Shown here: positions 28,668 to 39,098 of the stretch, piece after piece | Layout: each line of letters starts with the position of its first letter | Position numbering within the stretch: position 1 is the first letter of the stretch | Assembly (NCBI GenBank): GCA_035529075.1 | Contig: DATKXK010000004.1 | Location: 1 to 55,515 of the forward strand | Source: Acidobacteriota bacterium | GTDB lineage: Bacteria; Zixibacteria; MSB-5A5; GN15; FEB-12 | Length of the DNA stretch: 55,515 nt | Direction of reading: 5' to 3' | Position numbers and translations under genes: made by a program | The notes under the pieces: generated by a model | Databases searched by the model: none | The model's input: only the letters and a program-made list of their open reading frames with translations | What the model was told of the DNA's origin: nothing

Positions 28668-29186
28668 TTCCGGCTCGTCTCGTGCGATCGGTCTGTGTTT
28701 CTCCGGGGATAATGCTTCCGCCCGTTCAAAATTGCGTGAGACGTAAACACGCGCAACTTCAAAATACGGATCGACCTTTTGAGTCCACCGGCGGCCGGTG
28801 TATCGCCGGTGACAGGCTGTCAGGTGGTACGGTCGCCGACAGGCGGTGTTGGCCGCCTGGCGGGAATCGTGGCCAATTACGGTCCGGCCGGTGGGCTTTT
28901 GCAGCTTGCGTTTTCTTACCTGCTGTGTATATTAGTATGTCGCACTTGCGCCCTAGACGTTTCAGCAGTTCAGTTTACACGCAAGGTTCTCATCGTACTG
29001 TCCGGTTGCTATCAAGCGGCGCACTCAGGGTCCTTGCATGTTTTATTCGAGCGGCACGGCAGGCCGCAGTCGACGCACCTTGACGGACTTCGGGAATCAG
29101 CATTCAGAAATCTGACGATATGACGCGCCGAACCCGGCCATTTTGAGCCGGTGGCGCAGAATCTCAAGCTTAGGGAGGTCTACTCC
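28668..29186 (+). other. Intergenic region, no gene seen
   Basis: On the minus strand an open frame runs into the heme O synthase remnant but has no recognisable similarity. On the plus strand the 29187 gene is preceded by TAGGGAGG. I found no clear promoter. Confidence 0.3.
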
Positions 29187-31931
29187 ATGAAACGAGTGGT
29201 ACTTGTGGTAGCGCTGTCGCTGGTGCTTGTGGCGGCGGCCGTGATGCAGGCCGTCGATGTGAATCCCGGCACACAGGACCGTGAGGTACAGTCCCTTGCG
29301 CTTCCGGCCGGAGCAAAGATTGCTGAGGTGTACCCGGCGGGTGTCGATCAGCAATTGCGGGCGCCGGCGGCCAACTGTGACGGTGAGTGGCATGGCCCGG
29401 CTGCCTACGCCATTTCGGGCTGGTTCTACGGCAACGAGTATTATGCGGTGTACCAGGACCCGGATGAAACGGGTTGCGTGAACACATACCCGTTTGAGGT
29501 TGAAGCCGTTCACTGGCTCGTGCGGAGTGCAGCCCCTGGCGCGCTTGTACTGACGATGCAGCCGATCATCTACACCGCTGACCTGACAGATCCCGAATGC
29601 CCCAAACCGGGTGTGGTTCAATGTCTTGGCTCGCAATTCACCGTAACTCTGCCTGAGCCGGGGCTTTGGGATGTGGGTGTGCCGATCTCGGATTGCTGTG
29701 TGAGCCGCCCGTATTTCGCCAGCATCTACTGCCCCGACCTCACCGGCCTAGACCTCCTGGACATTTTAACTGATGACGGCGCTGTCTCGCCGCCGGGCAG
29801 CCGCGTCTGCGCCAACTACTTCAACTCCGCGGGGAGCTGGGACGATCTTATCAGCCTGTACGGTTTTCCAGGCAATGTGAAGCTCTGGTCAGAGGGAACC
29901 AACTCTGATCTGAGCGATTGCGACACCTGCGCCATCGTGCTGGTGCCCGGCGTGGATCTCTGGGAGACCTCACGCGACGGCAGCATGATTCCCCCGAACG
30001 TATTTGCGAGTTACCCCGTCCCGGCGGACTTTTTCGGCCCGGGTTCTGACCCGTTTGACGGTGCCGTTGTGTGGGGCGGCGACCCGCTGCCAACCGACCC
30101 CCTTGGGGCCTTGCCGGATGTCGACGGGATTGTGGAGCGCAAGTCGGCAGCCTCGCTGCCCTCCGATGGCAGTTCAGACCAGGTGGGCATTGAAATCGTG
30201 GCACTGTCGCTCGTCAGCGTCGAGCCTATCACGGTTACGTACGACGGCGGCGTGGTTACGGAAGCGTGGAATGTTCGCGTCTGCCTCTCCCAAAATGCAC
30301 AGACGGCCGGGATAATGGACCTGAGCCGCGAATGCTGCCTGGGCGGGAGTTTTGATGCCAGCCTGCCGATCCTGCCGAGATTTGTTTTCACGAATCTCTC
30401 GGGACCTGGCGAGAGGGTTCTCGATTTCGGGTTGGAAGGTATCGGCGCCGAGGTCTACAATACGGCAGACGGTCGCTGGTCGGCGAAGGTTCACCCGCCA
30501 TACGGCCTCGCAACTTCGCCGGGTCTGGTGCAGATCGATCATGATTGCTACGGTCCTACAGCTGAGACGGTAATCGGCCAGAGCAGCAGGTTTCTCAGGT
30601 GCGAAGACGAGTCGTGCTTTCCGGATCCCTGCGCGCCACCCAGCCCGGATGCCATTGAGAAGGGTCTGGTATGGCTGGCGGGTCAGCAGAATGCGGACGG
30701 ATCCTGGGGAATCACGGACAAAGTGGGCCGGACCGGCCTGGCGGTCCTGAAGTTCGAGCACTATGCACTTGAACAGGAAATTCCGCCGCTGGACCCCGGC
30801 TACGAATATTACCTGCAGGTTTCTGGCGGTCTGGACTACCTCTTCTCCGAAGCCTGCAAGATTCCCATCGGTCCCCAGCCAGCCGGCAACCCTGATTACG
30901 ACGGTGACGGAGTCGGTGTCTTCTTCATCACCGGTTCCTGCGGCGTCATGACGCGCCGCAACTACGAGACGGGTATAGCGTTGATGGCGATAGCAGCCAG
31001 CGGCGAACCGGAGCAGGTCATAAACGTGCCGGTCAGCCCGGTTCACGGCTTGACGCACGTTCAGGTTGCTCAGGACGTGGTGGAGTATCTTGCGTTCGGT
31101 CAGAACGACGGCGGGTTCGAACGCGGAGGCTGGGGGTACTACGAGAATCACGTCGGCATGAGCACCAACTCCAACAGCGGCTTTGTAGTCAGCGGTCTCG
31201 CCTATGCGGAATCGTTCCTGACGGGTGCCGGTCTTGTTGTCCCGGACTTTGTAAAGACCGAGCTGGATATCTGGATTGCTTACATCCAATGCACAGTGTT
31301 TATGGGTCCGGATGACGGGGGTTCGGGTTACACGGCCCCCTGTGTCTGGGTCAACACGCTCAAGACCGGTAACCTGCTGGCGGAAATGGCATTCGCAGGC
31401 GATCTGGGCAGCCTCGAGCAGGAGAGAGCCGTGGCGTACATGGTACGCCACTGGTATGATCCGAACAACGATCCGGGATGGATAAACAACTACATGGCCA
31501 TGTGGTGCATTATGAAGGGCCTGAAAGCCCAGCACCTTGACGCCATCGACGGGATCGACTGGTTCGAGGACATCTCCGGCTTTATCCTGGCTAACCAGTT
31601 GCCTGACGGATCCTGGCGTCCGGATCTGTGGGGCGATAACATACTGACCACGACGTGGGCTCTCCTGACCCTGGAGAAGGATTATCTGACGCCGAGTTGC
31701 TGTATCGGCCTGACGGGTAACATAGACTGCGATCCGGCTGAGGTCGTGGATATCGGGGACCTGACAGCGCTGATCCGTTACCTCTTCATCCCGCCCATTC
31801 CGACGCTGTGTTGCCCGGAGGAGGCCAATGTTGACGGTGATCTGGAAGGCATTATTGACATCGGTGACCTGACAGCGCTGATTGCCTACCTGTTCATCTC
31901 GCCTAATCCTGATCCGGCACCCTGCCTATGA
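29187..31931 (+). CDS. Secreted protein with prenyltransferase/squalene-oxidase-type repeats and dockerin pair
   Basis: 914 residues from ATG 29187 (MKRVVLVVALSLVLVAAAV), chosen for the AGGGAGG ten bases upstream and the clean signal peptide. The first 480 residues are beta-rich and not recognised. From about 490 there are alpha-toroid repeats: LVWLAGQQNADGSWGITDK, LVYA-type helices and a last ILANQLPDGSWRPDLWGDN. These QxxDGSW repeats are shared with squalene cyclases and complement-like toroids, but catalytic DxDD is not seen, so enzymatic cyclase activity is unlikely. Residues 845-914 are two dockerin-like repeats (AEVVDIGDLTALIRYLF and EGIIDIGDLTALIAYLF). It belongs to the same secreted dockerin set as the genes at the left end. 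Confidence 0.82.
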   Translation: MKRVVLVVALSLVLVAAAVMQAVDVNPGTQDREVQSLALPAGAKIAEVYPAGVDQQLRAPAANCDGEWHGPAAYAISGWFYGNEYYAVYQDPDETGCVNTYPFEVEAVHWLVRSAAPGALVLTMQPIIYTADLTDPECPKPGVVQCLGSQFTVTLPEPGLWDVGVPISDCCVSRPYFASIYCPDLTGLDLLDILTDDGAVSPPGSRVCANYFNSAGSWDDLISLYGFPGNVKLWSEGTNSDLSDCDTCAIVLVPGVDLWETSRDGSMIPPNVFASYPVPADFFGPGSDPFDGAVVWGGDPLPTDPLGALPDVDGIVERKSAASLPSDGSSDQVGIEIVALSLVSVEPITVTYDGGVVTEAWNVRVCLSQNAQTAGIMDLSRECCLGGSFDASLPILPRFVFTNLSGPGERVLDFGLEGIGAEVYNTADGRWSAKVHPPYGLATSPGLVQIDHDCYGPTAETVIGQSSRFLRCEDESCFPDPCAPPSPDAIEKGLVWLAGQQNADGSWGITDKVGRTGLAVLKFEHYALEQEIPPLDPGYEYYLQVSGGLDYLFSEACKIPIGPQPAGNPDYDGDGVGVFFITGSCGVMTRRNYETGIALMAIAASGEPEQVINVPVSPVHGLTHVQVAQDVVEYLAFGQNDGGFERGGWGYYENHVGMSTNSNSGFVVSGLAYAESFLTGAGLVVPDFVKTELDIWIAYIQCTVFMGPDDGGSGYTAPCVWVNTLKTGNLLAEMAFAGDLGSLEQERAVAYMVRHWYDPNNDPGWINNYMAMWCIMKGLKAQHLDAIDGIDWFEDISGFILANQLPDGSWRPDLWGDNILTTTWALLTLEKDYLTPSCCIGLTGNIDCDPAEVVDIGDLTALIRYLFIPPIPTLCCPEEANVDGDLEGIIDIGDLTALIAYLFISPNPDPAPCL

Positions 31932-32030: not shown

Positions 32031-32366
32031 CTAACCGGGGCAACAGTCGCCCGGGGAGCAGTTTGCGGCCGATGGCCCACCGATAGTGATGAGGTAGCCG
32101 GGCCGACCCGAGTCGCCCGTCACGTAATCGATATGCAGGCCTTCGTTGTCGGTGGCGAAGTCCCTGAGGAAGGGATCGACATAGGCCGTAACGCCGTTCG
32201 ATTCGAGCGCCGCCAGACCGTCCACTGACTCCTCCAGAGCCAGACCGAGAACCGGCCCGTTTCAGCCATGCCCCCGATAATGGACGACAAGCTTTCGCCC
32301 TGAGGCCTCGTCCGAGTTAAGCACCTTCAGGAGGGCCTTGCCGGCCGTGTCAGTAATTATAAGCAT
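32031..32366 (-). CDS. HesB/IscA-like probable selenoprotein with in-frame UGA
   Basis: On the minus strand ATG 32366 opens a frame (MLIITDTAGKALLKVL) with AAGGA ten bases upstream. At codon 35 it meets TGA (32264-32262), then continues in the same frame without shift as NGPVLGLALEESVDGLAALE, GVTAYVDPFLRDFATD, HIDYV and a C-terminus NCSPGDCCPG, stopping at 32031. Total 111 codons, the length of IscA/HesB proteins. TGA falls in GHG(U)NGPVLGLAL, where the family has its conserved Cys (as in GGCSG); HesB-like selenoproteins with Sec there are known. A stem-loop at the right distance follows. The alternative is a nonsense mutation. A TGA-terminated reading would leave a useless 34-residue peptide. 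Confidence 0.7.
32225..32243 (-). promoter_or_regulatory. Candidate bacterial SECIS stem-loop
   Basis: Downstream of the in-frame UGA the RNA can form CUGGCUC-UGGAG-GAGUCAG, a seven-pair stem (one G-U) with a five-base loop that has G at positions 2 and 3. The loop begins 25 nt after the UGA, within the distance accepted for bacterial SECIS elements. A second, shorter hairpin closer to the UGA (CGGGCCG/CGGTCTG) is an alternative. Confidence 0.5.
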
Positions 32367-32592
32367 AGTCCGGTCGTCCTTGGGTCTGCCAATGATCTAT
32401 CACGAATATCACGAGCCAATATAACCTGCGCAGAGCGAAAAGCCGGGGAAATAATTGTCGGGCCTTCCGGCTGGGCATGTGCCCCGCGCGGCAGCCGCCA
32501 GCCGATCAGCAGCGAGCCCCCTGCCGAGGCTGTTTCGACAACAGCTATTGTGTTCAGGGGTAGCGGGTTAACGGTTTTTTCATAAAAAGCCT

Positions 32593-32622
32593 TTGCATCC
32601 TGAAACTTTGGGACATTATTAT
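32593..32622 (+). promoter_or_regulatory. Possible promoter of the membrane protein-regulator pair
   Basis: TTGCAT (32593-32598) and TATTAT (32617-32622) are 18 bp apart, or 17 bp if TTATTA is used. It lies about 60 bp before the ATG at 32685. Confidence 0.45.
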
Positions 32623-32684
32623 CGTAAATTAGTTTGTGCGACAGACCGATATGTCAGACAAATTTAGTAAAGAGGAAATATTCG

Positions 32685-33305
32685 ATGGAATCAGCGGCTG
32701 ATTTGAAGAAGCTCGAGCGTAAAGCCTACTTGTCGTACCTTCAGGATGGCATCTGGGACACGCTCTTCGGTCTCGGGATACTTTCGTTTGGCGTGCTGAT
32801 GTTCCTGGACCTGTACTACCTGGTCGGGGCTGTAGTGGTAGTTCTCTGGGCCGTGGCGATTGGTGCGAAAAAGCGGTTTACTCAACCGAGGTTGGGCTAC
32901 GTGCGATTCTCGCCCGAGCGGGAGGCGCTGGAGGGGCGTAACCGGACGGTGCTAATGGTCCTGCTGTGGGTTGCGGTGCTGCTCGGGGGCGCTCTCGCCT
33001 TGGCCTGGGGCACAAGTTCAGGTGTTCACAGATGGGCCCGGGCTGCCGGTCTGATGCCCATGGGCATCGTACTGGCTGGTCTCGTGGGCGCTGTCGGTCT
33101 GCTGTGGGGGATTCGTCGCTATGTCGTCTACGCGGTGATAATCCTGGTGGGCTTTGCAGGAGGGCACGTGCTTGACGTGCACCCCAAGTTCTACTTCACG
33201 GCAATCGGGGCCGTGATTCTGCTCACGGGTTTGATCATGATGGTTCAATTCCTGCGCAAGTACCCGAAGCCCAAGGGGGAGGAGTTCGCCGGTGAGCGAC
33301 CGTGA
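32685..33305 (+). CDS. Polytopic membrane protein of unknown function
   Basis: 206 residues from ATG 32685 (MESAADLKKLERKAYLSYLQ), supported by AGAGGA upstream. About six hydrophobic helices are arranged in three pairs, separated by basic loops (GAKKRFTQPRLGYVRFSPER). It ends in a charged tail. I do not recognise a family. Its last 14 bases overlap the following winged-helix gene, so the two are translationally coupled. The pair looks like a membrane protein and its own regulator, a common arrangement. Confidence 0.75.
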   Translation: MESAADLKKLERKAYLSYLQDGIWDTLFGLGILSFGVLMFLDLYYLVGAVVVVLWAVAIGAKKRFTQPRLGYVRFSPEREALEGRNRTVLMVLLWVAVLLGGALALAWGTSSGVHRWARAAGLMPMGIVLAGLVGAVGLLWGIRRYVVYAVIILVGFAGGHVLDVHPKFYFTAIGAVILLTGLIMMVQFLRKYPKPKGEEFAGERP

Positions 33306-33621
33306 CGAAAGCCACCGGGGACCGGGGTCCGTGGCAGACATCAATCGGATAATCCACGAGCCGGCACGATTAGCCATACTGGCCTGCCTGTACGTCGTTG
33401 AGAGTGCGGATTTCCTTTTCCTGGAGCGCCAGACGGGCCTTACCCGGGGAAACCTGTCGTCGCACCTGAGCAGGCTGGAAAGCGCGGGCTATGTTCAGAT
33501 AAGCAAGGAGTTCGTGGACAAGATACCGCGAACGTTGCTTCGTCTCACGGCCGTCGGACGAGATGCGTTCGAAACGTACCGGCGAAACATGAAACGGATT
33601 CTCGACGAGTTGCCCGGCTGA
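33292..33621 (+). CDS. Winged-helix transcriptional regulator
   Basis: 109 residues starting with GTG 33292, which has GGGGGAGGAG upstream inside the previous gene. The sequence INRIIHEPARLAILACLYVV, then FLFLERQTGLTRGNLSSHLSRLE and GYVQISKEF is the DNA-binding winged helix found in small ArsR/MarR-like regulators (HTH_34 type). No metal-binding cysteines. It is likely to control its own operon with the membrane protein. Confidence 0.85.
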   Translation: MSDRDESHRGPGSVADINRIIHEPARLAILACLYVVESADFLFLERQTGLTRGNLSSHLSRLESAGYVQISKEFVDKIPRTLLRLTAVGRDAFETYRRNMKRILDELPG

Positions 33622-37904: not shown

Positions 37905-38042
37905 CATTTCCGGTCTGGATGTCGCTTTAACCAACCAGACGAATTTGTCGAATGACTCGATGCATGACTGGCGGCCTCAATGGTCGCCGATTCCGCAGTA
38001 GCGGGAGGAATAAACAGATACTCGGGGTTACTCACCATAAAA

Positions 38043-38072
38043 GGTGGCCCACCATTCATGGTGGGATTCCCG
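38043..38072 (+). repeat. Dispersed palindromic repeat, copy 1
   Basis: A GGTGGCCCACC...GGTGGG element whose core CCCACCAT-TC-ATGGTGGG (38048-38065) is a perfect palindrome. Related copies occur at 39135-39164 and 46177-46206, both just left of tRNA-derived units. Confidence 0.6.
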
Positions 38073-38105
38073 CGGAAAGAACGGATGCGAAAGGGGAGAG
38101 TGAAC

Positions 38106-39098
38106 ATGAGAGCTGTGGCAATAACGCTGGTTCTGCTTGTCGCTCAGGCCGCCTGGGGCCAGGGTGAAGCCACGGTTGCAGCGCAGCCGACCGAGGTGGT
38201 TTTTGTCAGCTATGCTGGCAACGAAACACAGCTTGAGCGTGCCTGTAATCTGGCCGAAAGTATCCGAACCTTCGCCGGTCGGTATAAGGATGCGCCGATA
38301 TGGGTGTACGCTTCTCCGGAACTCCTGGAGGGTGAATCTGCGGCGTTGCGGCAGCTCGAAGGGCTGAAAGTGGAAATCAGGCGCGTCGTCATTCCCGAAG
38401 AGACGTCCTGGTTCTTTCTCTCGGGAATGGTGTTCTCTGCGGCTTCCGCGGAAGCGGCAGCAGACGGAGCGGCGGTTATCGTGGTGTTTATGGGCAGCGA
38501 CACTATCGTGCTGCAGGAACCGCACGAGTTCATCCTGGCTGACTCAGTGGTTTTGGGATACCGCCCCGTGATGCATAAGAACATCAGCCCATTGTATTCG
38601 GAACCGCTCGATACCTACTGGAAAACGGCATACGATCTTATGGGTATCGATGAAGCGGCGGTCTTTCCGATGGTTACACAAGCCGACGGCGACACGATAC
38701 GCCCCTATGTCAATGCAGGCTGCATGGCGATCCGCCCGGAGCGGAGTATTTTCAGGAAATGGGCGGAGATATACAAACGCCTCTGCCGGGACTCGGTCCT
38801 GAAGGCTGAGAGCGTGCAGGACGGCATGAAACGGGTTTTTACTTTCCAGGTGGCCCTGACCGGAGCCGTTCTGAATAATCTCAAGCGGGGCGAGATGGTG
38901 GAGCTTTCCCAGCGGTATAATTACCCGATCTTTTTCAGGGAAATGTTCGGTGCCAAGCGCGATTTTCATGACATCACGGACGCGGCCACAATTCGTTACG
39001 AACACTTCTTTGATGAGCCGCCGCCCAACTGGGAAGAGCAACTGCAAGGACCGCCTGACAGGATTACGTGGATAAAGGAACACTGCGAAAAAGACTGA
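38106..39098 (+). CDS. Secreted protein with glycosyltransferase-like features, unrecognised family
   Basis: 330 residues from ATG 38106 (MRAVAITLVLLVAQAAWGQG), selected for signal peptide and GGGGAGAG. The open frame reaches further upstream but across the palindromic repeat. A Rossmann-like start (VVFVSYAGNETQLERACNLAESI), an acidic segment AVIVVFMGSDTIVLQEP and VNAGCMAIRPERSIFRKWAEIYKRL recall nucleotide-sugar transferases of the GT-A type, where NAG.(M/F).(I/R)P is common. The usual DXD motif is not evident. Export makes a classical glycosyltransferase role doubtful. Confidence 0.6.
   Translation: MRAVAITLVLLVAQAAWGQGEATVAAQPTEVVFVSYAGNETQLERACNLAESIRTFAGRYKDAPIWVYASPELLEGESAALRQLEGLKVEIRRVVIPEETSWFFLSGMVFSAASAEAAADGAAVIVVFMGSDTIVLQEPHEFILADSVVLGYRPVMHKNISPLYSEPLDTYWKTAYDLMGIDEAAVFPMVTQADGDTIRPYVNAGCMAIRPERSIFRKWAEIYKRLCRDSVLKAESVQDGMKRVFTFQVALTGAVLNNLKRGEMVELSQRYNYPIFFREMFGAKRDFHDITDAATIRYEHFFDEPPPNWEEQLQGPPDRITWIKEHCEKD

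Follow-up and report, generated by a model that had tools for sequence, protein, structure and literature searches.

A predicted HesB/IscA-like selenoprotein gene conserved through most of Candidatus Zixiibacteriota

The selenoprotein gene and its surroundings

The stretch of DNA analyzed here (55,515 nt; hereafter "the window") corresponds to contig 4 of a genome of 3.04 Mb, which comprises 21 contigs, is rated 100% complete, and belongs to the phylum Candidatus Zixiibacteriota. An initial annotation, made from the letters of the window, had proposed that a 111-codon frame on the minus strand, broken by a TGA alone, encodes a HesB/IscA-like selenoprotein. The coordinates and description of that frame are exact: it runs from 32366 to 32034, its single internal stop is the TGA at 32264-32262, and a TAG follows at 32033-32031. 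The features of the gene are as follows:

32031-32366, minus strand: predicted hesB/iscA-like selenoprotein gene, 111 codons plus TAG stop, with an ATG start at 32366
32377-32381, minus strand: possible ribosome-binding site AAGGA, 10 nt 5′ of the ATG, seen directly in the sequence
32262-32264, minus strand: in-frame UGA, with a predicted selenocysteine (Sec) reading, at residue 35; motif G-H-G-U-N-G-P, at the position of the first ligand cysteine in IscA
32225-32243, minus strand: SECIS-like hairpin CUGGCUC-UGGAG-GAGUCAG, 7 bp, 25 nt from the UGA to the first loop base
32034-32063, minus strand: C-terminal cysteine-rich tail NCSPGDCCPG, from the sequence and comparison with homologues

Residue 35 lies in the context YRGHG-U-NGPVLGLALEESVDG. 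The next start codon 3′ of the UGA is a GTG located 64 codons before the end of the gene, in agreement with the earlier remark that a gene caller would report just the 64-codon C-terminal part.

Divergent from the selenoprotein gene is a plus-strand gene pair (32634-33621), in which a winged-helix regulator (HTH_34; 33292-33621) and a membrane-like protein that has no Pfam match (32634-33305) overlap by 14 bases, at the end of the latter. The intergenic region upstream of the selenoprotein gene contains a sub-threshold Rfam match to PYLIS_3 (32507-32620, minus strand; 20.7 bits with a gathering threshold of 38, E 0.38), which is probably due to chance. At 22 of 67 loci carrying a UGA-type gene (for example, among L024, L043, and L061), the opposite strand encodes a sugar nucleotidyltransferase (NTP_transf_4) upstream of the gene; a glutamate dehydrogenase is encoded downstream on the same strand at 13 of the 67. 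Both are absent beside the window copy, where the neighborhood gave no clue.

Conservation of the in-frame UGA

Of 98 relatives searched, 69 have a homologue, and in almost every case the gene contains a single internal TGA. When the scan was extended to the phylum, 87 of 132 genomes gave a match; about 80 of these were strong, and nearly all had UGA at the codon for residue 35. The UGA at this codon spans genera, families, and orders, and the residues invariant in a 29-sequence alignment are the Sec site itself, A8, G32, G37, P38, G41, D80, and G90. Outside the phylum, a homologue from the Syntrophomonadaceae also has UGA at the same codon, together with an almost identical hairpin, TTGGCTCTGGAAGAGTCA, at the same distance, and a CGSCSC tail.

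Among the strong matches, a stop is lacking in just four genes, all of them tandem Cys paralogues that share a locus with a UGA-type gene (L049, L050, and L051 in genomes G045, G040, and G028, and L052 in G065); the Sec-site alignment comprised 67 UGA-type homologues and these four. The initial annotation had suggested looking for Cys at this codon in homologues, and had held that unrelated stops in sister genomes would mark a decaying gene. Cys is indeed what the four paralogues have, UGA is found nearly throughout the other strong homologues, and the sister genomes carry the same UGA rather than scattered stops. In the tree, the Cys paralogues have two or more separate origins, one in the genus g29 lineage and another in G065, and they could serve as selenium-independent backups.

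A hairpin under selection at the RNA level

The 7-bp stem-loop reported in the initial annotation is present, with its loop 25 nt after the UGA. Given the encoded amino acids, it is modestly unusual (P ~0.015 for seven pairs, from 10,000 synonymous recodings), and the folding energy alone is not decisive, with z-scores of -1.3, -0.1, and -2.2 for pieces of 50, 65, and 22 nt, respectively. Scanning the region against Rfam produced no SECIS match at the hairpin. By itself, then, the window hairpin is weak evidence, and it is the comparison of homologous sequences that leads us to regard it as certain.

All 67 UGA-bearing homologues keep the hairpin, and most third positions within it are frozen. 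The consensus codons after the UGA are xTG-GCT/ACT-CTG-GAN-GAG-TCA, with almost no synonymous variation: leucine is encoded by CTG in 67 of 67 cases, alanine by GCT in 50 of 51, glutamate by GAG in 65 of 66, and serine by TCA in 50 of 58. Elsewhere in the same genes, four to six codons are used for leucine, alanine, and serine. The stem consensus is UGGCUC-UGGAN-GAGUCA, and its 6-bp core is 96.8% paired across the 67 UGA-type genes, as compared to 22-51% when the partner is slid by one to three columns. At three stem pairs, a sequence is altered on both sides (shuffled mean, 0.0), with very few sequences contributing. Of the six stem pairs, the Cys-type genes retain one, one, two, and five (three of these genes are from genus g29 and one is from G065); the hairpin is thus lost in the g29 paralogues and partly decayed in that of G065, which looks like a more recent change from Sec to Cys. 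Because the synonymous sites are frozen, the stem is paired with compensatory changes, and pairs are lost in the Cys-type genes, the alignments argue that the hairpin is selected as RNA. The loop, UGGAN, has a G early in the apical loop in the 67 sequences, as the bacterial SECIS criterion specifies.

A lower 3-bp helix drawn by RNAalifold (columns 9-11 with 19-21) was discounted, given that two of its pairs are invariant within conserved Pro/Gly codons and the third is often broken. The pattern of UGA plus hairpin did not occur in the viral contigs that were scanned for it.

The own genome also carries a second HesB-like selenoprotein gene (C10:544336-544668; L047 3037-3378), whose UGA and hairpin are intact. 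The two copies, which share 51% identity, are sisters in the tree (support 98/81), and we therefore conclude that a duplication occurred in this lineage, with the UGA and hairpin kept in both.

The window copy belongs to a pair, has diverged to this extent, and stands without the gene neighbors common at many orthologues, which counts against a functional selenoprotein. Its pairing and divergence are also what might be expected if a HesB-like gene were decaying into a pseudogene, with the UGA a chance nonsense mutation. However, about 80 genomes have this UGA at the corresponding codon, the window copy keeps every residue that is invariant in the 29-sequence alignment and has no other lesion, and the synonymously constrained hairpin is intact in it. 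For the family as a whole, decay is refuted by the conservation of the UGA and hairpin across the phylum; for the window gene, we consider it very improbable.

Family membership and fold

All 29 homologues in the alignment match both NCBIfam models of HesB-like selenoproteins, NF038090 (IscA_HesB_Se) and TIGR01911 (HesB_rel_seleno), with the best E-value to NF038090. The scores are low: the window protein reaches 31.7 bits against NF038090 and 28 bits against TIGR01911, where the curated cut-offs, which are annotation thresholds and not a biological criterion, are 85 and 66.35 bits. The five Zixibacterial members with bit scores range from 31.7 to 60.7 (NF038090) and from 28 to 38 (TIGR01911), all below the cut-offs, and the best NF038090 E-value among all 29 members (8e-19) implies a sub-cut-off score as well. 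The structure predicted for the window protein (mean pLDDT of 79, with a low-confidence tail) matches HI1723, IscA, and SufA (Foldseek E-values of 5e-6 to 2e-4), and in a profile alignment to HI1723, the Sec falls on the first ligand cysteine. The U-N-G-P of the window protein also fits the family Sec motif, UxGP. The HesB/IscA-like identity first proposed is thus borne out by the best NCBIfam match and by the fold. Judged by the Sec site, the hairpin, and the predicted fold, and despite the sub-cut-off HMM scores, the Zixibacterial proteins are a new divergent branch (subfamily) of the known HesB-like selenoprotein family.

This fold extends over both halves of the gene, which bears upon the idea that the UGA mainly serves as a programmed stop, ending a 34-residue peptide or setting apart a 64-codon C-terminal piece that starts at the GTG. 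A GTG start is present after the UGA, and UGA is also an ordinary stop in this genome. Nevertheless, the IscA fold covers both sides of the UGA, the Cys paralogues are full length, and protein conservation is even on either side, consistent with the earlier claim that coding similarity runs on past the UGA. We therefore give programmed termination a slightly smaller chance still than decay of the window gene.

Selenocysteine machinery and the proposed reading

As the initial annotation had predicted of a host that makes selenocysteine, selA, selB, selC, and selD were all found in the genome, so the absence of selB or selC, which it had named as evidence to the contrary, does not apply. SelB is encoded by a gene scoring 313 bits, above the cut-off, with selA (501 bits) directly before it; tRNA-Sec (68.6 bits; anticodon TCA, as assigned by ARAGORN) lies about 11 kb from the two. 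The selD gene (377 bits; C11:170304-171230, L108) has an in-frame UGA in the motif SCAGUASK and is predicted to be a selenoprotein gene itself. In the phylum, selB is near universal, scoring above the cut-off in 113 of 132 genomes.

Genome-wide reassignment of UGA to an ordinary amino acid (as to Trp or Gly in some lineages), with the hairpin irrelevant, would account for a frame that is open once the UGA is read through, but it is refuted by genes of the window that themselves terminate in TGA (nearby long frames at 29151..31931, 32634..33305, 33292..33621, and 37980..39098), is at odds with the presence of tRNA-Sec, selA, selB, and selD and with a hairpin conserved in UGA-type genes only, and has next to no likelihood.

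The window gene has an open frame, membership in a known family, a conserved UGA, a constrained hairpin, the IscA fold, and a complete Sec machinery in its genome. We consider it almost certain, on comparative sequence evidence, that it is a real gene whose in-frame UGA is read as selenocysteine in a functional selenoprotein; Sec insertion in this particular organism is what we infer from the same evidence. Ribosomes would start at the ATG at 32366, the hairpin 25 nt downstream of the UGA would bind SelB, and SelB-bound Sec-tRNA(Sec) would thereby be delivered at the UGA. The expected product is a 111-residue protein of the HesB/IscA fold, in which selenocysteine replaces the first ligand cysteine of IscA and a cysteine cluster lies at the C-terminus.

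Possible role of the protein

Of 70 complete homologues, 67 carry at least two cysteines within the last 18 residues, and hardly any cysteines occur elsewhere in the protein. For this reason, Sec35 and the cysteines of the tail are the obvious residues to consider as forming an iron or Fe-S site, or else a selenenylsulfide. We lean towards the view that the protein is an A-type Fe-S or metal carrier that uses Sec35 and the C-terminal cysteines together. It is possible, but we think it doubtful, that these residues instead act together in a purely redox selenol protein. More speculative, and in our opinion unlikely, is the proposal that the Zixibacterial subfamily is functionally distinct, with Sec35 and a mobile C-terminal cysteine cluster forming a selenenylsulfide or metal site whose role is other than Fe-S scaffolding, and that it may replace a missing Cys-type A-carrier in some species, including this host. 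A PF01521 search of the own genome returned nothing, not even the two Sec copies, and so is a poor guide to whether it has Cys-type A carriers.

Whatever its role, this predicted selenoprotein has been conserved across most of a candidate phylum. Its Zixibacterial members would escape curated annotation models, since those tested score well under both cut-offs, and gene callers would cut them short. The deep natural alignment, in which the Cys paralogues act as internal controls, would be well suited to probing the role of Sec in the HesB-like family.

Comparison with known systems

Members of the HesB-like family were reported in 2005-2006 (PMC1242214; PMC1794560), and the family, with its UxGP Sec motif, is included in a 2026 review of prokaryotic selenoproteins (PMC13188914). 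HesB is not mentioned in the open-access full text that pairs Zixibacteria with selenocysteine, which is weak evidence of novelty. An archaeal member, MMJJ_08070 of Methanococcus maripaludis, was recognized as a selenoprotein through mutagenesis together with 75Se labelling, and nitrogen fixation was unimpaired after its disruption (PMC11097638). The Zixibacterial proteins are likened to it here by description, as it is placed in the HesB-like family by name; it differs in being archaeal, and the bacterial-type SECIS was not found there (PMC1794560).

The Syntrophomonadaceae homologue, from a Firmicute, shares the UGA, a near-identical hairpin, and a Cys-rich tail. With the HesB-like selenoproteins described by TIGR01911 and NF038090, the Zixibacterial proteins share a small IscA fold, Sec at the position of the first ligand cysteine, the UxGP motif, and a bacterial-type hairpin just after the UGA, but they differ in scoring below both curated cut-offs. 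HI1723 and AQ_1857 have G-F where the window protein has G-P after the Sec site. Finally, the Cys-type A-type Fe-S carriers IscA, SufA, and ErpA have in common with the Zixibacterial proteins the fold, the first ligand position, and cysteines near the C-terminus, whereas the latter have Sec in place of Cys and a variable cysteine cluster at the end of the chain.
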